Shown one piece after another: positions 17,904-39,456 of a DNA stretch of 51,805 nucleotides. Origin of the DNA: Longicatena caecimuris (GTDB lineage: Bacteria > Bacillota_I > Bacilli_A > Erysipelotrichales > Erysipelotrichaceae). Position 1 is the stretch's first letter, and every line of letters starts with the position of its first letter. Location: assembly GCF_004341945.1 (NCBI RefSeq), contig NZ_SMBP01000023.1, positions 1 to 51,805 on the forward strand, given 5' to 3'. Both the position numbers and the translations under genes were made by a program. A model generated the notes under the pieces. The model worked only from the letters and a program-made list of their open reading frames with translations. It was not told the DNA's origin and made no database searches.

Positions 17904-17951
17904 CAAAAAAAACGATATCTTGCATATCCATTACGAAATCAACATATCGTT
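17904..17951 (-). terminator. Original tmRNA terminator, now separated from ssrA
   Basis: On the minus strand AACGATAT and ATATCGTT arms are followed by eight T residues. Joining the two element ends would place this hairpin about 12 nt after the tmRNA CCA end. It is therefore the ancestral ssrA terminator. It now lies 10.7 kb from ssrA and just past and over the end of the serine recombinase gene. Confidence 0.8.
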
Positions 17952-19526
17952 AACCTTATATATGGTGGAGCCTAAGGGGAAGCAGTCGAACTCGGCGGCT
18001 TCCCCTTTAACAAAAGGGTCGCCGTCCGCTCCTTTCAGCATATCCCACGTGATTTCGGTCTTATCCTCCGAATACCACGAGGTCACGACCAGCTTCTCGT
18101 CGTAGAGATAAATCTTATCGACGAAATATTCCAATATCTTATCGCGCGTCTCCGGGTTGTCGAAGTCCGCGTGAAGGAACTTCTCGAAGTACGCCTTGAT
18201 GCTGTGCTCGTCCTCGCACAGCGAGACCTTGACGTTCTCGGCCTGTATCGCGTCGTTCAGGGATGCCTTCTGCGCCTCAAGCTGGTTCAGGCGCTCTATG
18301 AGGGTGTCGCTGAGCGCACCGCCCTCGATTGCCTTCATCAGGTTCGCGATACCCTTCTCGACCTCCTTGCGCTTCGCCTCCAGACCTTCGAGGTACCCCG
18401 TCTCCTTGTAATGCTCCTTGTAGTACACGGCGGCGTCCACCGCAAGGGACATCAGGTTCTCCGAGTCGTCGATGATGTACCTCAGGACGTCGGTCACGAG
18501 GTCCTCAATCCAGTCCTTCTTGACCTTCTTCTTCGTGCACAGCTTCTTCCGCTGGGCGGAGCAATAGTAGTAGTAATACGTGCGCCCCGTCTTGCTCGTG
18601 CCCGAGACACCTTGCATCGTCTCCCCACACTCGCCGCAGTACAGCTTCCCGGTCAGCCAGTAGCGAGGAGCGCCATCCTCATCCATTCCTCGCGCCCTCT
18701 GGGAACCCTTGCGCTTGTTCTCGGCGAGGCGCTTCTGCGCCCTGTCGAACGTCTCCCCGTCGACCAGAGCGGGCATCCCGCCGGGAACGACGAACTCGCC
18801 GTGCCTGTACTCGCCGATGTACGCGCGGTTCTTGAGCATCCTGTGCATCGTCTTCACACCGAAGGGGTTACCCCTCGACGTACGCAGACCGGCCTCGTTG
18901 AACTCGTCGCAGATGGACTGCATGGGTTCTCCTTCGGCGTACTTCGCGAACATCAACTGCACGAACGGCGCGGTATCGGGGTCTATGACGTACTTGCGCT
19001 TCTTGTCCACCTTCTCCGTCTTGAAGCCGAACACCTTATGGCCGTTGAAGTTCGCGTGCTCGGCGTTGAAGTCCATCCCGCGCTGGATGTGCACGGACAG
19101 GTTCCGACTGTAATACTCCGCCAGAGCCTCCATCAGCCCCTCGATGAGGATTCCCTCGGCGGTGTCCGTCGGGATGTTCTCCGCCAGCAGGTGTATCTCG
19201 CACCCCGCGTCGCGAATCGTCTTCTTCGCCATCGCCAGCACGTACTTATCGCGACCCAGACGGTCGGTCTTCCACGCAATGAGGGTGTTCGGACGGATTT
19301 TTGCGACCTCCGACAGCATAAGCTGGAATCCCGGACGGTCTTCCTTCGTGCCGGATATGGCCGCGTCCTCGTACTCTCGGACGATTTTCAGCCCGTGTGC
19401 GTCCGCCCATTCGTGGGCAAGCTCGCGCTGCTGTTCGATGCTCGCCTCGTTCTGCGAGTGGGAGGAGTAGCGATAGTACGCGATGGCGAGGTTATTGTCG
19501 TTGAGCTTCGTCTTCCTTCTCGCCAA
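17931..19526 (-). CDS. Large serine recombinase (integrase)
   Basis: A 531-residue large serine recombinase that should catalyse integration and excision. Residues 13-160 are the resolvase catalytic domain, with the nucleophile Ser21 in YYRYSSHSQ and the DRLGRD motif. Residues 180-285 are the recombinase domain. A zinc ribbon follows (CGECGETM ... CSAQRKKLC), then a coiled coil around 365-440. TTG at 19526 is the likely start because GGAGG lies 8 nt before it. The final 11 or so codons lie outside attL in host DNA, so the C-terminus is host-encoded in the integrated state. Serine recombinases rarely use ssrA, a target better known for tyrosine integrases. Confidence 0.93.
   Translation of the reverse strand: MARRKTKLNDNNLAIAYYRYSSHSQNEASIEQQRELAHEWADAHGLKIVREYEDAAISGTKEDRPGFQLMLSEVAKIRPNTLIAWKTDRLGRDKYVLAMAKKTIRDAGCEIHLLAENIPTDTAEGILIEGLMEALAEYYSRNLSVHIQRGMDFNAEHANFNGHKVFGFKTEKVDKKRKYVIDPDTAPFVQLMFAKYAEGEPMQSICDEFNEAGLRTSRGNPFGVKTMHRMLKNRAYIGEYRHGEFVVPGGMPALVDGETFDRAQKRLAENKRKGSQRARGMDEDGAPRYWLTGKLYCGECGETMQGVSGTSKTGRTYYYYYCSAQRKKLCTKKKVKKDWIEDLVTDVLRYIIDDSENLMSLAVDAAVYYKEHYKETGYLEGLEAKRKEVEKGIANLMKAIEGGALSDTLIERLNQLEAQKASLNDAIQAENVKVSLCEDEHSIKAYFEKFLHADFDNPETRDKILEYFVDKIYLYDEKLVVTSWYSEDKTEITWDMLKGADGDPFVKGEAAEFDCFPLGSTIYKVNDMLIS
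17963..17970. repeat. attL core repeat
   Basis: TGGTGGAG, identical to the tmRNA end at 28691-28698. The flanking bases on both sides differ between the copies, so the shared core is exactly 8 bp. It lies inside the 3' end of the recombinase gene. Confidence 0.75.
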
Positions 19527-19550
19527 ACAAATCACCTCCAAACTAATTAT

Positions 19551-20303
19551 TTAATCAATTATACAATTAGCTAATTCAAAAGAATGCCCGCCGCCCATAG
19601 GAGCGACGGGCTTTATACGCCAATACATGAGCAACTGGAGGGTGTATTTGTTTTGAAGTTTTTGCTTCGAAACCTTGAAATCCCACAACGTATCATCTGT
19701 TAGAAAGTCACCGTCTCCAGTAGCAACATAACCGGTATAGCCGCCTTCAAATGTCAGACCGTCCAACACCTTTGGTCCATACTGCTCGAAGAACCTTAAT
19801 GAACGCTCGACCATCACACGTATGTTCTCAATCGTATAACCATCAGGCGTAATATCCTCTACAGGGCGGTATGCCATAACTCCTGCTCTATATGCAGAAT
19901 CAAACCCAGATAGTTTTACAGCCGCGTCTATTGAGTTGTCATCCAGCCCGCGCACATTAGATATCAGTCTCTCAAAAAGCTCAAGCTGTTGAACAGTAGC
20001 AGCACCCATCTGGGAAATCTTAAACGCCTCTTCGGCCGAAGTCCCAGACATGAAACGCGTGAGATAGTCCACGGTGATGCCAACCAAACCCGGAGATACG
20101 TTTTCCTCTGGATGCAGTTCATCAATGCCGCCCCCGTCGAGCATCGTTTGCTCAAACTCCTTCGGTTTGATATAGCCGCCTCTCGGCTGCTTTATCTTGC
20201 TGATACGCTGCGTCACAGAACACATCCATCCGTTCGCAGCAATATCCTGTGGCGTCAGTTCGCCGCTCCTGAGCTTCTTCATTACGTCTTCTCTTGTCAA
20301 CAT
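19551..20303 (-). CDS. PD-(D/E)XK nuclease-like protein (putative cargo)
   Basis: A 250-residue protein. Its last 60 residues read as a RecB/Cas4-like PD-(D/E)XK core: ATGDGDFLTDDTLWDFKVSK gives the Asp and the D-x-K pair, and TLQLLMYW matches the following QxxxY-type helix. The N-terminal 170 residues are not recognised. The start at 20303 is fixed by GGAAGGAG upstream. Base composition is clearly more AT-rich than the mobilization genes beside it, suggesting a separate origin. It sits between the partition-type genes and the recombinase, a typical cargo position. A defence or DNA-processing role is possible but unproven. Confidence 0.65.
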   Translation of the reverse strand: MLTREDVMKKLRSGELTPQDIAANGWMCSVTQRISKIKQPRGGYIKPKEFEQTMLDGGGIDELHPEENVSPGLVGITVDYLTRFMSGTSAEEAFKISQMGAATVQQLELFERLISNVRGLDDNSIDAAVKLSGFDSAYRAGVMAYRPVEDITPDGYTIENIRVMVERSLRFFEQYGPKVLDGLTFEGGYTGYVATGDGDFLTDDTLWDFKVSKQKLQNKYTLQLLMYWRIKPVAPMGGGHSFELANCIID

Positions 20304-20322
20304 AGATTCCACTCCTTCCAAA

Positions 20323-20547
20323 TCAGTTTTCCGAATGTTCCTGAATCCACTCGTGGATAATCGCAGCAATCGTCGTTTCCTTCTCAGCCGCCATCATCTT
20401 GAGCGCCTTCTTGTCGCTCACCGTCAGGGACAGCGAGAGGGTCGTGCGCTTCTCGTCGGCGGCGGGAGCGTCGGCGGAAACCGTCTTCTCTATCTTCTTC
20501 TGCTCGGCCTCGCGGTCGGCAGCGTATTTCTCGAACATGTTCGCCAT
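20323..20547 (-). CDS. Small ribbon-helix-helix-type DNA-binding protein, ParA partner
   Basis: A 74-residue protein. The first 35 residues are charged and disordered. The last 40 (TLSLSLTVSDKKALKMMAAE and on to IIHEWIQEH) have the strand-helix-helix pattern of Arc/CopG proteins. It follows parA by 90 nt, so it is a likely centromere-binding ParB-type partner and repressor. AAAGGAGG precedes the ATG. A TCGACA-17-TATAAT promoter and two tandem TTTAATCA octamers lie directly upstream. Confidence 0.75.
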   Translation of the reverse strand: MANMFEKYAADREAEQKKIEKTVSADAPAADEKRTTLSLSLTVSDKKALKMMAAEKETTIAAIIHEWIQEHSEN

Positions 20548-20559
20548 GGCTTAGCCTCC

Positions 20560-20575
20560 TTTAATCATTTAATCA
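20560..20575. promoter_or_regulatory. Tandem TTTAATCA octamers
   Basis: Two adjacent exact copies of TTTAATCA (20560-20567 and 20568-20575). Single copies also occur at 19550-19557 and 21215-21222, in each case just upstream of a leftward gene (recombinase, ribbon-helix-helix gene, parA). The first copy partly coincides with the ribosome site of the 20547 gene. They are candidate operator or partition repeats. Confidence 0.45.
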
Positions 20576-20637
20576 TTTGTACAATTATACATCACTTTGT
20601 CTCATTTGTCGAGACCTAACGAACCTTTGACCTGCGG

Positions 20638-21195
20638 TTATTCAGCCGGGAACCCCGCAATCTCCCGCACCGTGTTCACCATCGACAGGGTCGCCTTCGC
20701 GGCCTTGCCCCTGCGGTCGTACTCGACGACGGACTGTTCACCGGCCCCCGCCTGAACGAACGCCTCGGACTGGGGAAGCGTGACCACCGTCTGGTCGCCA
20801 GCGAGACCCCCGAACCACTCCATGAAGTCACGGGACGCCTTGAAGCGGTTCCAGCCGTTCATGACATACACGATTTTCGCGCGGCTGTGCTTGAACACCG
20901 CCTTGCGCATGCGCATCAGCGGCTCGATGTCGCGGGATGTGGTGCGGGTGGGGATGACCACGACGTCGGCCTCCTTGAGCCAGTCGGCAAGCGCCTCCTG
21001 CAACGCCCCCGGCGTGTCCACCACGGCGACCTCAGCACCGTCGACCTCGCGGGTCTTGTGCAGGGTCCCGCCCTGCGCGTCCAAGTCGTAGAAGCTCATC
21101 GGGATTCCCGAGCGCTCGAACGAGAACGCAATCTCGTCGGCGACGAGGGACTTCCCGACGCCGCCCTTCTGATTGCAAACCAAAATCGTCTTCAT
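20638..21195 (-). CDS. parA: ParA family ATPase
   Basis: A 185-residue MinD/ParA ATPase. The deviant Walker A KGGVGKS lies at residues 10-16, and VAVVDTPG provides the Walker B region. It is short and lacks an N-terminal DNA-binding extension, as in type Ib ParA proteins. ATG at 21195 has GAGGTGA just upstream. With the small DNA-binding protein downstream it forms a plasmid-style partition pair. That is useful if the element replicates as a circle after excision. Confidence 0.9.
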   Translation of the reverse strand: MKTILVCNQKGGVGKSLVADEIAFSFERSGIPMSFYDLDAQGGTLHKTREVDGAEVAVVDTPGALQEALADWLKEADVVVIPTRTTSRDIEPLMRMRKAVFKHSRAKIVYVMNGWNRFKASRDFMEWFGGLAGDQTVVTLPQSEAFVQAGAGEQSVVEYDRRGKAAKATLSMVNTVREIAGFPAE

Positions 21196-21258
21196 ATCTC
21201 TCACCTCATATGTATTTAATCAATTACTCATTTACGTATTTAGTTACAGTCTTATGGT

Positions 21259-21292
21259 CCCTCGAAGGGTTCCATGCAAGACCCTTCGAGGG
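21259..21292. repeat. Perfect 12-bp-arm inverted repeat upstream of parA
   Basis: CCCTCGAAGGGT (21259-21270) and ACCCTTCGAGGG (21281-21292) around a 10-nt loop. Several other hairpins follow within 200 bp, including ACGATT/AATCGT and GTCGA/TCGAC. The 21196-21528 interval separates the divergent parA and 92-residue genes. It may hold both promoters and a centromere. Confidence 0.6.
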
Positions 21293-21528
21293 GCTTTCCG
21301 AAGCCCACCGTTCCATCGTCTCCTGAACCTCTTCGGAACGATTTTCGGGAATCGTCCCGTAAACGAGCCGAAGTCGATTTTTCGACGTTTCCGCCTCTTT
21401 CGGAGAGAGACCCTTGAAAGGTCTTTCCCAAGCCCATCTCAAGCCCACCCGCGCTCTCGACCGCCGATATGCCTTCGGCATCGGGTCGGCGCGTGAAGGA
21501 GAAGGCCCGAAAGAAAGGGAGACGAGAG

Positions 21529-21807
21529 ATGAACGGCTACGGCATCGAGACCTATGCGGATTTGGCCAAGACGGTCGGCGGGATGGTCCTCGCCAACGAG
21601 ATGGCGCATCGTCCGCTGGAACTCGTGAGCGGGGATTTCACACCATGGGACGAGATATTCCAGTGGTACATCATCAGCTACCCCGACTTCCTGATGGAGC
21701 ACACGGACGAGCCGGTGTTCCATGACGAGGAACTCGACCTGTACGTCTGGGGAATCACCCATTTCGGTACAGGCTGGGACTGCGTGCCCGCCCCCGAGAT
21801 TCACTGA
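21529..21807 (+). CDS. Hypothetical protein, only rightward gene of the element
   Basis: A 92-residue acidic protein with many aromatic residues (WDEIFQWYIISYPDFLMEHT, ELDLYVWGITHFGTGWD). The start at 21529 has AGGGAG upstream; the longer frame begins without a ribosome site. There is no signal peptide or membrane segment. It reads against all other genes of the element and ends in its own terminator. The compact, highly conserved-looking sequence suggests a real gene, but I do not recognise the family. Confidence 0.7.
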   Translation: MNGYGIETYADLAKTVGGMVLANEMAHRPLELVSGDFTPWDEIFQWYIISYPDFLMEHTDEPVFHDEELDLYVWGITHFGTGWDCVPAPEIH

Positions 21808-21808
21808 G

Positions 21809-21843
21809 AATGACGGTTCCCGCAAGGGAGCCGTCATTTTTTT
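21809..21843 (+). terminator. Intrinsic terminator
   Basis: AATGACGGTTCCC-GCAA-GGGAGCCGTCATT followed by a run of T residues. It stops the 92-residue gene before the convergent relaxase gene. Confidence 0.9.
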
Positions 21844-23356
21844 ACTCCCCGAGGTGCTTGTCCTCGTCGCGCACGCGCTCCGTCGCCTCGGCCGTCTGCT
21901 GCATCTTCGGCGTGACGCCGCGATGCTTGACGGTGCGGGCGGCCTCGTTGTCCAGAGCCTCCTCGGCGGCCTTCAGGCGCTTCTCGGCGTCCCACATGTT
22001 GCCGCGTGATTCGTAGAGACGACGCTCGGCGTCCTCCTGCATCCTGTGGCGCTGGTCCTCCATGAACTGGAGCATCATCATGCGGAACATCCGGGCCATC
22101 ATGTCCGACATCATGCGGGAGACGGGGTCGGTCCCGGTCCTGCTCGCCAGCGTGTACAGCCCGAATCCCATCGCGAGGCTTGGGCAGGCTCCCTTCAGGG
22201 CGTCCCGTGCCTCCTTGGAATCGTGGAACTCCCTGCGGGCGCGTTCCACATCGGCGCGGAGCTGGGCGAGGGCGTCTTCCGGGTCGTTCTCTGCATTCGC
22301 GAGCGCATCGTACTGCTCCCCGGCGATAGGCATGCCCTCGCTCTTCCTGCGACGGGCGTACACGCTCTTCAAATCGGAGGCCATGTCCCTCACGTCGGAC
22401 TCGCTCGGTTCGTACATGTCGGAATCATGCTGGGCAGGGGAATCCTGCTGCGTATCCTCCATGCCGACCATCTGGGAATCCTGATTCGGGGCCGGCGCTG
22501 TCTTCAGTTCCTCGCGGGTCTGCTGTTCCTGCTTCTCCTCGAAGAACCGCTCGACGCCCTCCTTCGTCAGGTCGTCTGCGAGGTTCGAGGCGCGGCGCTT
22601 TCGGGTCCTACGCTTCGGGCCCCATTCGTCCCGCATCTTGTAAGACCATCCGACGGACTTCTCGCCCGTCTTCTTGTCGACTTTCGATGTCTCATTGAGG
22701 GTCACTCCGGCGAACGCAAGACGCTGCTTGAAATCATCAATATCGCTGGCGTCGTCCCTTGCTTTTGCCACCGCATCGCCGAGATGGCGGTCGAAGGAAT
22801 CGTGCTCGAACGAGTCCCGTTTCTCCGCCCATGTCGACTTGTCCTTGTCCGCTCCTATCACGGACAGACCCCACTCGCGGCTCAGCTCGTCGTTCACCGC
22901 CTGCACGCGCGGGGCGAACAGGCTCGTGTCGTCCTTGTTGATGACCTGCCCGGTGCGGCAATCGTGGTTCGCGATTGTCGCGTGGGCGTGGACGCATCCG
23001 CCCTCGCCGTCCACGTGCATGGTCACCCAACATGGGGAGTCGGGGGCGAGTTCATGGCAGAGCAGGTAGGCGTGCTCCATGCCCCTCTGCACATCATCGG
23101 GATTGCCCGGATTCAACTCGTCGAGCGCCCATGAGACGCGAAGCTCGTAACCCTCGTTGACCATGTTCGGATGGACGGCATGAAGCCCGTTGCAGTACGC
23201 GATGAACTCACCTCGGGAGGGCATGTCGCCCATCTGGGCGGCGATGCGGTCCGTCCCGTTTTGCAGGTGGTCGCGTCTGCGCTTTCCCTCTCCGAACTCG
23301 GTGTAGGACATGCGGCCCCGGACGTCGGGCAATGCCTGCACATACGTCGTCGACAT
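21842..23356 (-). CDS. Relaxase/mobilization nuclease
   Basis: A 504-residue MOB relaxase that should nick oriT and pilot the strand in conjugation. The N-terminal nuclease domain (1-170) has candidate nucleophile tyrosines Tyr5 and Tyr18 and the metal site His114, His123, His125 in VHAHATIANHD. The remainder is charged, helical and partly coiled-coil, with a Met-rich stretch near 415-440. Its start overlaps the mobC stop by one base (TGATG), so the two are coupled. The arrangement matches MOBP-type relaxases, though the clade needs a profile comparison. Confidence 0.88.
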   Translation of the reverse strand: MSTTYVQALPDVRGRMSYTEFGEGKRRRDHLQNGTDRIAAQMGDMPSRGEFIAYCNGLHAVHPNMVNEGYELRVSWALDELNPGNPDDVQRGMEHAYLLCHELAPDSPCWVTMHVDGEGGCVHAHATIANHDCRTGQVINKDDTSLFAPRVQAVNDELSREWGLSVIGADKDKSTWAEKRDSFEHDSFDRHLGDAVAKARDDASDIDDFKQRLAFAGVTLNETSKVDKKTGEKSVGWSYKMRDEWGPKRRTRKRRASNLADDLTKEGVERFFEEKQEQQTREELKTAPAPNQDSQMVGMEDTQQDSPAQHDSDMYEPSESDVRDMASDLKSVYARRRKSEGMPIAGEQYDALANAENDPEDALAQLRADVERARREFHDSKEARDALKGACPSLAMGFGLYTLASRTGTDPVSRMMSDMMARMFRMMMLQFMEDQRHRMQEDAERRLYESRGNMWDAEKRLKAAEEALDNEAARTVKHRGVTPKMQQTAEATERVRDEDKHLGE

Positions 23357-23799
23357 CAGACATCACCTCCCGTGATTCCGCCATGCAAATCGGCTCGAAG
23401 CTCCTTGACCTCGTCCGACAATCCTTCGATGGATTCCCTCAGGCTTTCGAACGCCTTCTTGTCCGGTTCCATCTTGATTTCCTCAAGCATGCCCATCCCT
23501 TTCACGCGGGCGTTGAAGGCCCGTGCAATCTGGTTGATGTTCACGCCGATTCGGTTCAATTCCATCAGCATCCGGTCGAGCTGCGGAGTGTCCGCAACGA
23601 CCTCGTGCTTCGTGTGGGAACCGGCGGAGCCGTACAGCGCGCCACGCAGATAATTCGAGCGCGTGCGTCCGCCTCTCTTCCCATCCAAAAGGGCAAGCTC
23701 CTCGGCGTTCATGCGCACCTGAATAACAGTCTCGCGACGGTCCTTCTTGTAGTGCTGGCGGGTCGCCTTGCCGCTTCTTTTCTCAACTTCTTTTGCCAT
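23356..23799 (-). CDS. mobC: MobC family mobilization protein
   Basis: A 147-residue MobC/relaxosome accessory protein. The N-terminus is basic. VIQVRMNAEELALLDGKRGG is the ribbon-helix-helix part, and LMELNRIGVNINQIARAFN is the strongly conserved MobC signature. AAGGAGG precedes the ATG at 23799; the longer open frame lacks a ribosome site. It binds oriT and helps the relaxase nick. An inverted-repeat-rich region lies directly upstream. Confidence 0.92.
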   Translation of the reverse strand: MAKEVEKRSGKATRQHYKKDRRETVIQVRMNAEELALLDGKRGGRTRSNYLRGALYGSAGSHTKHEVVADTPQLDRMLMELNRIGVNINQIARAFNARVKGMGMLEEIKMEPDKKAFESLRESIEGLSDEVKELRADLHGGITGGDV

Positions 23800-23882
23800 G
23801 CAAAACACCTCCTTATTCGCAATCCAAATGCGATGCTCATTTCTCGTCGCACTTTGCTGCAATCTGCGAAACGGGGAAGGGA

Positions 23883-24066
23883 GCAAGCATTGACCATGTA
23901 CGTACAAAATGCGAATATCGCATTTTTCCCGCCATGGTCAGCTTGCGAGGGGACGGCGAAGCCGCCCCCTTCGAACCCCCGAATCTGTCCCTTCTGATTC
24001 AACATGTTCTGTCCGACAGAACCACGCGACCGAATGTCGGACACGGGGACGACTCCCCATGTCCGA
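23883..24066. other. Candidate origin of transfer (oriT)
   Basis: A cluster of hairpins upstream of mobC. Outer arms GCAAGC-AT-TGACCATG (23883-23898) and CATGGTCAGCTTGC (23933-23946) enclose a perfect AAAATGCGA/TCGCATTTT stem (23906-23926). Next come GGGGACGGC-GAA-GCCGCCCCC (23949-23969), TTCTGTC/GACAGAA (24007-24021), and a two-tier stem TCGGACA+GGGGA / TCCCC+TGTCCGA (24037-24066). There is no gene between 23800 and 24080. Position beside mobC and relaxase, and nested repeats, are typical of oriT; the nick site is not identified. Confidence 0.55.
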
Positions 24067-24080
24067 ACCTCCGGCGTGTT

Positions 24081-24422
24081 TTAATCGAAGGGACGGCGCT
24101 CGGGATTGAACCCCTCGACGCCGAGAGAACCGCCGTCGCCGTCCGAAGAATCGGCGTCGCCCGCAGGTTCGCGCACGACTGCGTTCGGGTCACCATCGGA
24201 AGGATTTCCGCCGTTTCCATGTCCGGCGTCCTTGTGCAGTGTCTTGACGAACGCGAGCACCTCCTCGGCGGAACCCATTTCCTTCACTTCGGGGAAGACC
24301 GTCACGAGGGCGTCGGCGTACGCCTTGGTCTTCGCAGCCTGCTTCTCGCGGCGCAACTTCTTCGCCTGAGCCTCAAGCTCACGCGCCTTCTTGTCTATGT
24401 CATCGAATCTCTTGATAGCCAT
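24081..24422 (-). CDS. Hypothetical mobilization-region protein
   Basis: A 113-residue protein. The first 45 residues are strongly charged and helical (DKKARELEAQAKKLRREKQA), likely a coiled coil. The next 25 contain a short ordered part, VVFPEVKEMGSAEEVLAFV-like. The last 45 are acidic, Gly/Asp-rich and disordered. Small proteins of this pattern often precede mobC genes on mobilizable plasmids. The ATG at 24422 has AAGGAG upstream. The function is unknown. Confidence 0.65.
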   Translation of the reverse strand: MAIKRFDDIDKKARELEAQAKKLRREKQAAKTKAYADALVTVFPEVKEMGSAEEVLAFVKTLHKDAGHGNGGNPSDGDPNAVVREPAGDADSSDGDGGSLGVEGFNPERRPFD

Positions 24423-24478
24423 AATCAATCACTCCTTATCAATCTGAATCTGTCTCCTCGCTCCTGCCGTCTTTCGCG

Positions 24479-24778
24479 CTACATCCAAAGCTGAATCGCG
24501 CCGATGACGAAGGGCAAGGCGAGCATCACCAAAGCGACGGTAATCAGCGCCTTCGCGACCCTGAGTCCGAGGACATCGACCTTCGACTTGCCGGGCATCG
24601 AGCGCTCGGGAATCAGCTTCTCCATCGCCTTGAGGTGCCGCTCGTAAAGCTCCCGTTCCTCCGCCGTGAGCGTCCCCTCGTCCGCCTTCGTGCGGAGACA
24701 GGAAAGCTCACCGTCACTTAGAACGTCGACGTTCGCATTGTCGACAACCTTCTTCTTTGCCTTGTAAATCTGACTCAT
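24479..24778 (-). CDS. Small single-pass membrane protein
   Basis: A 99-residue protein with a cytosolic-looking N-terminal part and one C-terminal membrane helix (about 74-98: ALITVALVMLALPFVIGAI). Residues 29-49 carry the pattern R-x-KA-x2-G-x-L-x3-ER-x-LYE-x2-L. The same pattern occurs in the next protein upstream (24793-25503), so the two are related there. AAAGGAGGTG precedes ATG 24778. The family is not recognised; coupling to a helper transfer system or entry exclusion are possible roles. Confidence 0.65.
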   Translation of the reverse strand: MSQIYKAKKKVVDNANVDVLSDGELSCLRTKADEGTLTAEERELYERHLKAMEKLIPERSMPGKSKVDVLGLRVAKALITVALVMLALPFVIGAIQLWM

Positions 24779-24792
24779 CTCTCGCACCTCCT

Positions 24793-25503
24793 TTAATCTT
24801 CAGCGAGGTCTTTCACTGCGTTTCCGCCATATCCGCCTCCGAGGTCTTCGATTATCTGACGACCGTCATATCCGTTCCCGTCATACGTACCGGGGTCATA
24901 CGACGAATCTTCCTTCTGTTTCAAATAGACCTCGAAGTTCCACAGCGCCTCATCGCTCCAGATATGACGGTGCACCTCGGTCATGTCGGACGTGCCCCGA
25001 AGGCGACTCACCACCTCGTCAAAGAAACACTCGTCCGGCGGAACCTGCCCGGAAGCGAGCCTCGCGACTGAAGCGCGCCCGCTTTGGATAAAACTCCCCA
25101 AGTCCCAAGAACCGCCTCCAGACAGCAGCCTCATCGTGTTCGCGATGCTGGACAACACCTTGTTCGTGTCGGGCAGCTCGCCCGTCAGCTTGTAGCCAAT
25201 TTCATACGTCGTGTACGGGACCAGCAGAATCGATTCCGACAGCTTGCATCCCGTCATGGCGTACATCCCAATCAGGGCCACGAGCGCCAGCGATATGACG
25301 CCGCGCCGAATCGCGCCCTTCTTCAACCGCCTCTCCGACAACCTCCCCATGGACCTCGCCTTGGAGGCGTTGACGTCCGCCTCGGCGAGGGCGCACGACT
25401 GAAGATAGTCCTCGTAAAGCAGCCGTTCGTTCTCATCGAGACCCCCGTGGCGTGCTTTAAGGCGCCACTGGGCAATCTTCTCGCTTTCCCATCTGTAACT
25501 CAT
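24793..25503 (-). CDS. Membrane protein of unknown function
   Basis: A 236-residue protein. Residues 14-34 hold the R-x-KA-x2-G-x-L-x3-ER-x-LYE-x2-L pattern shared with the smaller neighbour. A basic stretch then leads to one membrane helix at about 64-84 (GVISLALVALIGMYAMTGC). The C-terminal 150 residues would be outside and end in a Gly/Tyr/Asp-rich tail. The TGC after the helix resembles a lipobox but is too far from the N-terminus to be a normal signal. AAGGAGG precedes the ATG. It is 13 nt after the primase gene, in the same operon. Confidence 0.65.
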   Translation of the reverse strand: MSYRWESEKIAQWRLKARHGGLDENERLLYEDYLQSCALAEADVNASKARSMGRLSERRLKKGAIRRGVISLALVALIGMYAMTGCKLSESILLVPYTTYEIGYKLTGELPDTNKVLSSIANTMRLLSGGGSWDLGSFIQSGRASVARLASGQVPPDECFFDEVVSRLRGTSDMTEVHRHIWSDEALWNFEVYLKQKEDSSYDPGTYDGNGYDGRQIIEDLGGGYGGNAVKDLAED

Positions 25504-25516
25504 ATCCTTTACCTCC

Positions 25517-27328
25517 TTATTCGCTTTCCATTTCATTGGCGGTCGTTTCTCCGGACACCATGTATGCCGGAACCGCCGCCGTCTTATCGCGAAGCAATCC
25601 GCGATAGCGCTCCTTCACCTCGGGCTGACATACACGCATCGGGTCGCTTCCCCGGTAGTCGTGATTCATCCAGTTGCGAAGCTCGTATTTGAGAATCAGC
25701 GGCTCCGCGCAATCCATGTGCCCCTGCGAACGCACCGCGTTCTCCGTGCACGACCATTCGGGCCAGAGCGAGAGCAGGGCGGCCAAATCCTTCTTGAACC
25801 CGTACTTGCCGATAGGGCGGCCCGAAGGCTGATTCTTCTGCATCCATGCGCAGTACAGGTCGTATGCGAAATCCCACGGGAGCAAATCCCATGAAACATC
25901 GGAAAGGACCTCCTCGCAGAACTGGCGAATCGGGTCGTTGTACGTCTTGAAATCCGCCAGCATGTCCTTGCAGCTCTGCGGGATGCTCAACTCGTAATAG
26001 TCCGTCTCGTAGAGCAGGCGGTAGAGCACGTACTCAAGAACCTCCCTGCGATGCAGGTAGTCGTTCTTGATGTACTTGCGCTCGTGCCCTTCGAATCGCT
26101 TCTCGAACGGAATCACGAGCAATCGCCTGTACATGGACTCTGACTTGTCCTTGAGCTTCGGGAACTCGTTCACACACTGAATCATGAACCCACGGAACAT
26201 GAGCGTCCTCGGGTCTTTGAACTTGCGGTTTATCTGGAACGGGTCATGCGTGATTACCGACTTGAGCGCCGCCGCATCGTCAACGAAGGTGCCCGTGTCG
26301 TTCTCGTCGGTGATAATCGCGGAAACACGGCAGAGGGGTTCCAGCATGAACTGCTGGGAGAACGCCTTCAGGGGCACCGAGGCCCAAGTCCCTCGACCGC
26401 AGAGATTGCGAATTAGGGTACACAGCGTTCCCTTGCCGTTGTTGCCCGACATGGAGTAGAACCATGCGGTCTTGTTCCAGCTCACTGCGGGGCGAATCGT
26501 CGCGCCCATGACCTCCCAGAGCAGGTCGACGACTTCAGGGTCGTCCGAAAGCTCGTTCATCCACGAGACCACATCCCAATCCGTACCGTCGTCATCGTTG
26601 CGGATGACCGGATTCTGGGCATTCGGGACGAAATCGACCTTCGACTTGCTCGTGAACACGTACTCCGGGTCGAAACCGAGGAGCACCTTGCTCCCATAGT
26701 CGAAGATTCCGTTGTTGACCGGAATCAAATCACGGTCGGAACAGCGCTCGACCCGCTTGCAGATGGAACGCAGGATTGCGACCGTCTCGTCCACGCCTCG
26801 CAAGGACATCGTTTTGTCGTACGAGCGAATCAGGCGCTCCAGAGTCTCATCTCGGGTGTCGTAGCATCCCTCGTTCTCGCCGTCGGTCTGGTAGATTCCG
26901 ATATCGAAGTTCCCCTCGTTCTCGGCCTTGTTCCAAAGAATGCCCACGCCGTGGTGCAACTCCCTAATCAGAATCGCAATCTGCAAAGGGTGGAGCGCCG
27001 TCAGGCGGCGATAGCGCGCCTCCGGTTTCTTCGCATCGGGATAACGCTCGCTCTTCTTAGCGGTCGGGGGCACGTTCTCATCCGGACGCCCCAAGTTGTA
27101 CTTCTCGATGCAATCATTTGTAATTTCAAGCAACTCGACCTTGACGGTCGAGAAATCAGGCGACAAATCTGTGTCGATATCCGACAGATACGCCAGCGTC
27201 ACGGCCTCAAGCAGGTCGTCGTACGCTATGGATTGACTTTCGCACATATCTGTGATATCATTTATACAGTTGTTAGGTACCGTCCCGTAAGCGTCGCCAG
27301 CGCCGGGGCGGTTTTCTTTTTGCCTCAT
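25517..27328 (-). CDS. P4/D5-type primase-helicase (SF3), putative Rep
   Basis: A 603-residue replication protein. NNGIFD near residue 206 and the region before it match the D5_N domain. The superfamily 3 helicase follows, with Walker A SGNNGKGT (294-301), AIITDENDTGTF as Walker B region and a QCVNEFPKLKDKSESMYRRL sensor segment with arginine finger. An N-terminal prim-pol domain is not evident; residues 1-100 look unrelated. Such proteins start replication of phage-plasmids and satellites at repeat-rich origins. A candidate origin with many GGCACAAC repeats lies at 28072-28391. AAGGAGGTG precedes the ATG. Confidence 0.88.
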   Translation of the reverse strand: MRQKENRPGAGDAYGTVPNNCINDITDMCESQSIAYDDLLEAVTLAYLSDIDTDLSPDFSTVKVELLEITNDCIEKYNLGRPDENVPPTAKKSERYPDAKKPEARYRRLTALHPLQIAILIRELHHGVGILWNKAENEGNFDIGIYQTDGENEGCYDTRDETLERLIRSYDKTMSLRGVDETVAILRSICKRVERCSDRDLIPVNNGIFDYGSKVLLGFDPEYVFTSKSKVDFVPNAQNPVIRNDDDGTDWDVVSWMNELSDDPEVVDLLWEVMGATIRPAVSWNKTAWFYSMSGNNGKGTLCTLIRNLCGRGTWASVPLKAFSQQFMLEPLCRVSAIITDENDTGTFVDDAAALKSVITHDPFQINRKFKDPRTLMFRGFMIQCVNEFPKLKDKSESMYRRLLVIPFEKRFEGHERKYIKNDYLHRREVLEYVLYRLLYETDYYELSIPQSCKDMLADFKTYNDPIRQFCEEVLSDVSWDLLPWDFAYDLYCAWMQKNQPSGRPIGKYGFKKDLAALLSLWPEWSCTENAVRSQGHMDCAEPLILKYELRNWMNHDYRGSDPMRVCQPEVKERYRGLLRDKTAAVPAYMVSGETTANEMESE

Positions 27329-27340
27329 AACCTCACCTCC

Positions 27341-27619
27341 TTAATGAATCCCGTGAGACACCAGATATTTCTCGAACGTCTCGCGGTGAATACGGCGACT
27401 TCGAATCGTGTCAGTCATCACTACGAAGTCCGCGTCATCGGCCTTCATCAGCGAACGCACGCGCCCGATTCCTATTTCGAACAGGGTCGACGCCTCGGCA
27501 CTCGTCAGGAACGGCTTCGCCTTCAGAGCCGTGATGTAGGCCGCGTATTCCTCCATCGTCAGCTCGCTCCCGCCGAGAATCTTCTTCGTGAACCCCTTCT
27601 TCTGTTTTGCATTTGCCAT
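27341..27619 (-). CDS. xis: Excisionase-like winged-helix protein
   Basis: A 92-residue protein. SAEASTLFEIGIGRVRSLMK, followed by a VMTDTIRSRRIHRETFEKYL wing, closely follows the layout of Tn916 Xis. It would bind near the element ends and direct the recombinase toward excision, or act as operon regulator. ATG 27619 has AAGGAGG 9 nt upstream; 20 more codons upstream have no ribosome site. It is the first gene after the structured leader RNA and lies 12 nt before the primase gene. Confidence 0.8.
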   Translation of the reverse strand: MANAKQKKGFTKKILGGSELTMEEYAAYITALKAKPFLTSAEASTLFEIGIGRVRSLMKADDADFVVMTDTIRSRRIHRETFEKYLVSHGIH

Positions 27620-27651
27620 AAAGCAACCTCCTTTTTTCTGCCTATAAACGC

Positions 27652-27704
27652 AAAAAAGCGGCGAACCAGAATCCAGCAATCAAGCTGAAATCTGATTCGC
27701 CGCT
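27652..27704 (-). terminator. Very strong terminator between leader RNA and xis
   Basis: On the minus strand AGCGGCGAA (27704-27696) pairs with TTCGCCGCT (27665-27657). The stem continues with UCAGA/UCUGG and CAGC/GCUG pairs and is followed by six T residues. It lies before the xis ribosome site, so genes of the operon can only be made by read-through or another promoter. Confidence 0.88.
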
Positions 27705-27895
27705 CGTCACGTTCGTGCGATTGCCGTCCTATTTGGACGGGTAGACGCTGTTGCCTCCCGCATCGGCTCGTCAGACCGACGCAGTTTCGAGGGCGGACCC
27801 TCATCGGCTTCCTCCCGAGCCTAAGGCTCGGTCTCAGATAGGCTCACGTCGGTATTTCCCGGCCGCTATCCATCGGCAATCATGTCGCGAATATA
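27652..27895 (-). ncRNA. Structured leader RNA or sRNA of unknown class
   Basis: The predicted transcript from the promoter at 27901-27929 to the terminator is about 240 nt and packed with helices. A closing stem joins GATTGCCG (27881-27874) to CGGCAATC (27726-27719). Inside are a GATAG/CTATC arm (27870-27837) with inner GGC/GCC and CGG/CCG pairs, a perfect CCGAGCC-UUA-GGCUCGG hairpin (27831-27815), and GAGGG/CCCTC (27802-27789) inside a CCGAU/GUCGG pair. A further hairpin at 27740-27724 shares CCG with the closing stem, so alternative folds are possible. It resembles a riboswitch or attenuator ahead of xis-primase. I do not recognise the class, and no ORF explains it. Confidence 0.6.
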
Positions 27896-27900
27896 TGAAT

Positions 27901-27929
27901 ATTATACAACATGAAATGACGGAAAGCAA
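27901..27929 (-). promoter_or_regulatory. Main leftward promoter of the element
   Basis: On the minus strand TTGCTT (27924-27929), a 17-bp spacer and a perfect TATAAT (27901-27906). It drives the leader RNA and, beyond its terminator, xis and the primase operon. Confidence 0.7.
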
Positions 27930-27961
27930 TAGTAAACGTCATATAATTGCAGGTCAGGGGC

Positions 27962-28007
27962 TTGTCCGACGCTGTTTCCCGCCATAAATGAGCGGAAACA
28001 CCGACAA
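27962..28007. repeat. Two-tier hairpin upstream of main promoter
   Basis: TTGTC (27962-27966) pairs with GACAA (28003-28007), and TGTTTCC (27973-27979) pairs with GGAAACA (27994-28000). It lies between the promoter and the repeat array, in a stretch without genes, and could be part of the origin or a regulator site. Confidence 0.45.
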
Positions 28008-28071
28008 AAATTGCTCGTCTCAAAAATCGTCGTACAGAAGAAAAGGGCGGATTGTCGAAGCTCGAAACTTT

Positions 28072-28391
28072 GGCACAACTTTGTTGTGCCGGCTTTTTTT
28101 CGACAACCATCGGTGCTCCAGCTCGATTGCACAAACCGTGGCACAAACTGCAAAACCATGTTGTGCCGGGGTTTTCCCGCATATTCTCGATGCTGCGCGG
28201 CGGTTGGCACAACTTGCACAACATTTTTCAAGTCTTATTTATATGACCTATATGCACATGAAAGGCTATATATTTATTTTTTCTCGCGTACGTAAGGGTT
28301 AAAAAAAGTTGTGTTGTTGTGCCAATCAAGTTGGAACCCCGAGAAATTGCGGGAAATGTCTGGCACAACAAAGTTGTGCCAAAAAGTTGTG
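28072..28391. other. Candidate replication origin with symmetric GGCACAAC repeats
   Basis: Seven exact GGCACAAC/GTTGTGCC copies (28072, 28083, 28160, 28206, 28316, 28362, 28373) and about five near copies surround an AT-rich core (28223-28307). The layout is mirror-symmetric. Outer 19-bp palindromes GGCACAAC-TTT-GTTGTGCC (28072-28090) and its exact reverse complement (28362-28380) flank two 30-bp inverted arms (28160-28189 and 28340-28369, 24 of 30 bases matching). Inner repeat pairs flank the core. The element encodes an SF3 helicase, so this is the likely oriV. No gene is seen between 27930 and 28690. Confidence 0.65.
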
Positions 28392-28524
28392 ACATGCAAA
28401 AAACCACCGAAACGCATGCCCTCCCCACCGTGTACTCGGAATCTAATTCCGCATCGAGCGAAGCGAGATTGCTGGTTGTGCTCCCACATCCTCTTCAGAA
28501 TGCCCTAAAAGCCGTTTTAAGCCA

Positions 28525-28564
28525 CAAAAAAGCCCGAAGGGTAGACGAGTACCTCTTCGGGCTT
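28525..28564 (-). terminator. Second terminator downstream of ssrA
   Basis: On the minus strand AAGCCCGAAG and CTTCGGGCTT, a perfect 10-bp stem, followed by six T residues. It backs up the terminator at 28604-28631 and shields the origin region from tmRNA transcription. Confidence 0.85.
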
Positions 28565-28603
28565 AAAACGTCTTAAAACGCAAAATACGACGTCAGGAAA
28601 ACG

Positions 28604-28631
28604 AAAAGGGGACGCCCTAAAGGGCATCCCC
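28604..28631 (-). terminator. Element-derived terminator now used by ssrA
   Basis: On the minus strand GGGGATGCCC-TTTA-GGGCGTCCCC followed by TTTT, 60 nt past the tmRNA CCA end. In the excised circle it would lie exactly at the stop codon of the recombinase gene, so it is probably that gene's native terminator. Confidence 0.82.
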
Positions 28632-28690
28632 AAATCTATACACAAGCGCGAACTCATTCTTGATGAAGAAGAGTTCGACGCTTCCTCTTT

Positions 28691-28698
28691 TGGTGGAG
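28691..28698. repeat. attR core repeat (tmRNA 3' end)
   Basis: TGGTGGAG; on the minus strand CTCCACCA, the last eight nucleotides of tmRNA including CCA. Matches attL at 17963-17970. Confidence 0.75.
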
Positions 28699-29071
28699 GT
28701 GGCGAGAGTTGAACTCGCGTCCAGAAACAGCCCCACGTACAGACATCTACAGTTTAGTCCATTACCAATATTCAACAGGTAACAATGGACAGCTCCTATT
28801 GAAGGTGTTCAATTTATTTTCGTGATCAATCCCTTGAACTAGAATTGAACCTTATCCTTCGTAAATGAGATGCTCATCTAGTATGCCAAAAGACAACATA
28901 CTAGCGGCAGCTGCGAACCTATGTCGGTTATTAAGCAGCAAAAGCCATTCTCTGGTTTGCACCAAAGATGTTAGCTAATTTAGTTTTTCCGTTTAAATTT
29001 AATTGGTTATTACGTAACCACTCGACTGCCGTCTGTACCAAGCGTATCCCTGTCGAAACCAGTACACCCCC
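28691..29071 (-). ncRNA. ssrA: tmRNA
   Basis: A complete one-piece tmRNA of 381 nt that rescues stalled ribosomes with SmpB. The 5' end GGGGGTG (29071-29065) pairs with CACCTCC before the ACCA end, forming the acceptor stem. GGTTTCGAC follows at the 5' side, and the T-arm GAGTTCAACTC lies near the 3' end. The tag frame runs from 28990 to 28934 and encodes GKTKLANIFGANQRMAFAA followed by tandem TAA stops (28928-28933); the AFAA end differs slightly from the usual ALAA. Its 3' end is the integration target of the mobile element and is fully restored. Confidence 0.96.
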
Positions 29072-39225: not shown

Positions 39226-39450
39226 AATAAAAAAAGCACTTCGACTGCAAAGACGCCTATCTTAGACGCGGTTCCACTTTGCTTGAAATATGCTTTTCCA
39301 CTCTTCACGTATAACGCCGTGGCACGTATTTTTCTACTTATCGAAAAATCCCTCAAAGGGGCATTCCCTGTTACCTTATGCTTTCTGCTTCCACCATCCA
39401 GAAATCGCTATGCCACAATGGTATCAAGTACTCATCCTTTGTCATCAGTT
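39226..39450 (-). promoter_or_regulatory. T-box leader of cysS
   Basis: On the minus strand the leader contains the T-box sequence AAAGTGGAACCGCGTC, then a terminator whose arms include GCAAAG and CTTTGC and which ends in seven T residues just before the cysS ribosome site. An AGTA/GGTGGAAGCA-type stem I lies upstream. Uncharged tRNA pairing stabilises the antiterminator and lets cysS be transcribed. The specifier codon could not be placed with certainty, but a UGC lies in a suitable region. Confidence 0.92.
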
Positions 39451-39456
39451 TTTTAT

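Follow-up and report, generated by a model that had tools for sequence, protein, structure and literature searches.

The window, a 51,805-nt stretch of contig NZ_SMBP01000023.1 from Longicatena caecimuris, contains a whole integrative mobilizable element (IME) of ~10.7 kb (17931-28690, no strand assigned) that adjoins the ssrA gene (28691-29071). The GC content of the element is 58% (stretch 50-60%), compared to ~38% in the surrounding chromosome and genome. Its genes encode a serine recombinase (integrase; 17931-19541), a ParA-like ATPase, a MobA/VirD2-like relaxase whose Pfam score falls below the cut-off, MobC, a P4-type primase and a Tn916-Xis-type protein, and no mating-pore genes were seen. 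With an integrase, a relaxase, no conjugation pore and a defined integration site, it is, on sequence grounds, a serine-recombinase IME at ssrA. Because the primase occurs in just 1 of 196 genomes of the host's order, namely the source genome itself, and because relatives are found in Coriobacteriia and one Agathobaculum, the element apparently originated in Coriobacteriia. Viral contigs scanned for the primase, relaxase and integrase gave no match. The element also carries a 112-aa ORF on the strand opposite the mob genes (21469-21807, plus strand), 60-78% identical in other elements and without a Pfam or NCBIfam match, and a T-box leader (Rfam RF00230) lies in the flanking chromosome (39246-39454, minus strand).

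The main operon of the element is read from the minus strand. Its promoter (27901-27929) scores 11.7 bits as a sigma-70 site, more than any other in the region, and consists of a -35 hexamer TTGCTT (27924-27929), a 17-bp spacer and a -10 hexamer TATAAT (27901-27906); a preliminary description had called it a consensus promoter, which holds for the perfect -10 but not for the weak -35. Similar hexamers at 17-18 bp spacing are present in sister elements (L002, L013, L003, L038, L041, L020 and L021). The predicted transcript begins with a structured leader of 243 nt (27894-27652, minus strand), close to the earlier estimate of about 240 nt, and the long terminator previously noted before xis was recovered at its end as an intrinsic terminator (27652-27704, minus strand) with arms at 27691-27704 and 27657-27670, followed by U6 (T6 in the DNA), at about -37 kcal/mol. 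The gene that follows (27341-27619, minus strand) had been named as xis, and a Pfam match to the Tn916-Xis family bore this out (PF09035, E 2.2e-6); it starts 33 nt past the terminator, with an AGGAGG ribosome-binding site directly upstream, and is followed by a P4-type primase/D5-like replication protein gene (25517-27328, minus strand; TIGR01613, E 2e-52). No promoter was found between leader and xis, as sense scores at the operon start reach at most 5.3 in the window versus 11.7 for the leader promoter. An intrinsic terminator stands between the promoter and the first gene with no other promoter, as expected of an attenuator. Within the operon, sense-strand terminators are few.

On the transcribed strand, the leader folds better than 200 of 200 shuffles (z -6.6); the corresponding values are z -3.3 for its body without the terminator and z -4.3 for the opposite strand. 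The multi-branched body (27719-27881, minus strand) is closed by an 8-bp stem, GAUUGCCG/CGGCAAUC, which had been noticed earlier and was placed by script at 27874-27881 with 27719-27726. It encloses at least five hairpins, at 27866-27870/27837-27841, 27825-27831/27815-27821, 27798-27802/27789-27793, 27776-27783/27759-27766 and 27735-27740/27724-27729 (all minus strand), in line with the at least four described, with two G-U pairs included in the fourth. A proposed competition between the last of these (27724-27740) and the closing stem survived only in part: hairpin and stem do have CGG (27724-27726, minus strand) in common, yet the competition is minor, because the best fold cuts the hairpin to 4 bp, stacked on the closing stem.

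The preliminary description could place the leader in no known RNA class, and the Rfam search that it proposed returned no family: at the gathering threshold or at E up to 10, we obtained only chance-level microRNA and sRNA hairpins far below threshold, and the apparent microRNA matches reflect merely long hairpins. Plasmid and phage records likewise held no match to the leader DNA. A single homologue (n = 1), ~98% identical with five or so differences, was found in genome G352 (L014/L025), and a covariance model of the window leader detected nothing further in 398 Coriobacteriia genomes and 41 genomes of G352's genus. Matches of this model at L050-L052 lie in coding sequence and are attributable to chance, L053-L056 matched more weakly still, and a match to motif GATGCGGGAGGCAACAGCG in viral contig L022 is within a protein gene. 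The leader is a real, unclassified feature at an interesting control point; its kind, a structured leader with a terminator, is already known.

Sister elements revealed a separate leader family at the same place, which we term type A and which comprises six sequences (L002, L012/L013, L003, L038, L040 and L041). Its helices are paired in 97% of cells, with compensatory changes on both sides at four pairs, and its 26 G-U versus 2 A-C cells therefore place the structure on the operon strand. The 5' domain is strongly conserved (40 of 53 positions invariant across the six sequences), and conservation of the loops is also high. Between L002 and L003, the leader is 80% identical in nucleotides, compared to 63% for xis (42% in amino acids) and 60% for the region upstream of the promoter; as in this pair, conservation of type A leaders exceeds that of xis and of the upstream DNA. 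Two further kinds of leader, of 160 and 310 nt, occur in L020 and L021, and the type A and L021 leaders had no match at threshold in Rfam. The window leader shows no sequence similarity to type A, and the covariance models do not cross-match; with shared 7-mers barely above shuffles and 8-mers not significant, we rejected a common origin of the two. All 9 of 9 loci in which xis heads the operon carry a structured leader with a terminator, and loci lacking xis before the primase have no leader, with the exception of L021.

Several further candidates were discarded. Type A model matches at L035, L042 and L043 lie in coding sequence and arose by chance, a type A pseudoknot (AGCA/UGCU) is disrupted in the alignment in L040 and L041, and leader peptides were dismissed, as the short ORFs of some leaders have no Shine-Dalgarno sequence and are lost in L003. 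The L021 leader, which precedes the primase, contains two short overlapping ORFs, MNEGHLGTGKPVRYFDK and MNKHNKIREHKFLSRQRQ, that have no clear ribosome-binding site and could be candidate leader peptides. L040 is a decayed element in which a type A leader is joined to relaxase sequence, without xis and primase.

Comparison of the window with L025 revealed what the leader travels with. Identity is 96% over leader and xis (27197-28000) and 96-99% over the mobilization genes and integrase, versus 72% in nucleotides for the primase, and the repeat region at 28000-28450 is unmatched. The primase and its origin-like repeats have thus been swapped, and the leader has kept to the xis, mob and integrase backbone. 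It follows that replicon specificity is not set by the leader, which suits a role in deciding expression of the xis-led operon. The repeats upstream of the leader promoter (28065-28391) form an array of TTGTGCC/GGCACAA in direct and inverted orientation, resembling origin iterons, and the arrays of sister elements use other cores (TTGTTCCA, TGGGCA and TGTGTCA). Beside the operon start, at about 27973-28000, lies a near-palindrome, TTTCCGCTCATTTATGGCGGGAAA, that is retained with variation in nearly all sister elements, leaderless ones included.

A scan of both strands for promoters uncovered a putative second RNA gene (27269-27321, plus strand), predicted to yield an antisense sRNA of ~53 nt whose complement in the primase mRNA lies near the start, at about codons 3-20. 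Its promoter (27233-27261, plus strand; TTGACT, 17 bp, TATCAT) scores 13.9 bits, a value reached by none of 400 shuffles, and a promoter at the conserved position exceeds 399 of 400 shuffles in L002 and 400 of 400 in L014, L003, L012, L013 and L038. L020 and L041 have a weak version of this promoter, and leaderless loci have none. The terminator hairpin, ACCGUCCCG/CGGGGCGGU followed by UUUUCUUUUU in the window, begins about 12 nt past the predicted start and is succeeded by UUUUCUUUU. Across seven elements, its nine pairs are intact in 62 of 63 cells, with both-side changes at several positions.

Collectively, we favor, with a little more belief than doubt, a reading in which the leader is a default-off transcription attenuator gating the xis-rep-mob genes. 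It builds on the observed promoter, fold and terminator, on xis as first gene with no intervening promoter, and on the same layout in sister elements. RNA polymerase would start at 27894, the nascent RNA would fold into the closed multi-hairpin body, and most transcripts would stop at the strong intrinsic terminator (27652), leaving xis, primase and mob genes silent while the element is integrated. Some transcripts may read through, or a signal may shift the fold such that the 5' arm of the terminator is held by upstream sequence; read-through would then switch on excision, replication and mobilization. We infer that termination takes place in cells and is conditional, and the leader RNA is probably a brake on element mobility. 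The preliminary description had seen in this layout a riboswitch, an attenuator or a regulatory sRNA, and the position ahead of xis, primase and mob genes fits a cis-acting attenuator; a ligand-sensing riboswitch is the more tentative reading.

A shift of fold would involve an antiterminator strand, for which the window offers a weak candidate: AUUCGC in the 5' segment (27887-27892, minus strand), complementary to GCGAAU in the terminator arm (27695-27700), with p about 0.05 when the first 40 nt are considered alone and no significance over the whole leader. Upstream segments complementary to the terminator arm are also present in L020 (GUUCAC/GUGAAC; p again about 0.05 for the first 40 nt, without significance across the full leader) and L021 (GAUUCG/CGAAUC). 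The base of the L021 terminator, GCGGCGAAUC/GGUUCGCCGC, is identical in sequence to that of the window, and the remaining leader differs. In type A, one site changes in step at three places, namely upstream CACRGG, the terminator 5' arm CCYGUG and the 3' arm, a single event that appears compatible with a choice between antiterminator and terminator. None of the antiterminators found comes close to the leader terminator in stability.

The same features could instead describe a stable trans-acting sRNA of 243 nt that acts on element or host mRNAs or on a protein, with the terminator simply marking its end and xis living on constant low read-through. A strong promoter, a strong terminator, a compact fold and the highly conserved type A loops would suit such an RNA, but xis has no independent promoter, the leader always lies directly ahead of the operon, and no target was found, pairing with the antisense sRNA not exceeding shuffles; we therefore regard this explanation as unlikely. 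Rather doubtful, too, is a cis-acting processive antiterminator of the Tn916 canT or phage HK022 put kind, in which the leader RNA would modify RNA polymerase to pass its own and later terminators. The kind of element and the place are alike, and in Tn916 a complex RNA likewise sits beside a terminator (PMC11658703); against this, the leader's own very long-stemmed terminator follows at once, Rfam reveals no similarity to known antiterminator families, and, as a weak counterpoint, the operon offers few sense-strand terminators to pass.

Termination forced by an antisense RNA against the leader, as in plasmids pT181 and pIP501, agrees with the general leader-attenuator layout and with the putative antisense sRNA gene that overlaps the beginning of the primase gene, 330 nt further downstream. 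However, neither the window leader nor type A leaders contain an antisense promoter (best score 5.1 bits versus 9-12 in the sense direction), the sRNA ends before xis, and its complementarity to the leader does not rise above that to shuffled leaders, on which basis direct pairing of the two was rejected; the explanation is improbable. A role of the fold as single-stranded DNA, as a single-strand origin or oriT, has very little to recommend it: elements that move as single strands have structured non-coding DNA and the complementary strand also folds, but the promoter, U-tract terminator and G-U polarity indicate an RNA of the operon strand.

The silencing and release of integrated mobilizable elements are poorly known, and one review of IMEs mentions neither attenuation nor antisense control. 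The attenuator reading would supply two concrete control points, a leader gating xis, replication and mobilization and an antisense RNA directed at the gene for replication, in an element family common to gut Actinomycetota and Bacillota. Speculatively, and with small probability, the exchangeable, unrelated and equally structured leaders of gut Coriobacteriia sister IMEs (at least the window, type A, L020 and L021 kinds) might constitute a new class of RNA switch timing excision, with the conserved antisense sRNA setting replication and the type A core serving as a new aptamer for a helper-element or host signal.

Known systems offer partial parallels. Like terminator-type riboswitches in Rfam, the leader places a promoter, a structured domain and a terminator ahead of the first gene, and the 5' domain of type A is strongly conserved; unlike them, the window leader has neither an Rfam match nor a metabolic gene, and its sole homologue is near-identical. 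In the rep leaders of pT181 and pIP501, attenuation is set by an antisense RNA made within the leader. The window leader resembles these attenuators (pIP501 is covered in a review, PMC4981023) in its length and structure and in the intrinsic terminator that it places ahead of replication genes, and differs in having no antisense promoter in it or just past it. The antisense sRNA recalls RNAII of pMV158, an antisense RNA directed against the region where a replication gene starts (PMC4485353): each is about 50 nt long, with a brief 5' tail, a single hairpin of 8-9 bp and a U-rich end. Unlike RNAII, the putative sRNA of the window would cover a coding segment of a P4-type primase, about codons 3-20, in an integrated element. 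In Tn916, the operon is held off by the intrinsic terminator T1, with the complex cis RNA canT adjoining; canT lies at the opposite end of Tn916, becomes active after circularisation and is processive (PMC11658703). The window leader differs from canT in directly heading xis and in having its own terminator, and the two have no sequence match, yet like canT/T1 it joins a mobile-element operon, an intrinsic terminator and an adjoining complex cis RNA, with an Xis from the same Pfam family.
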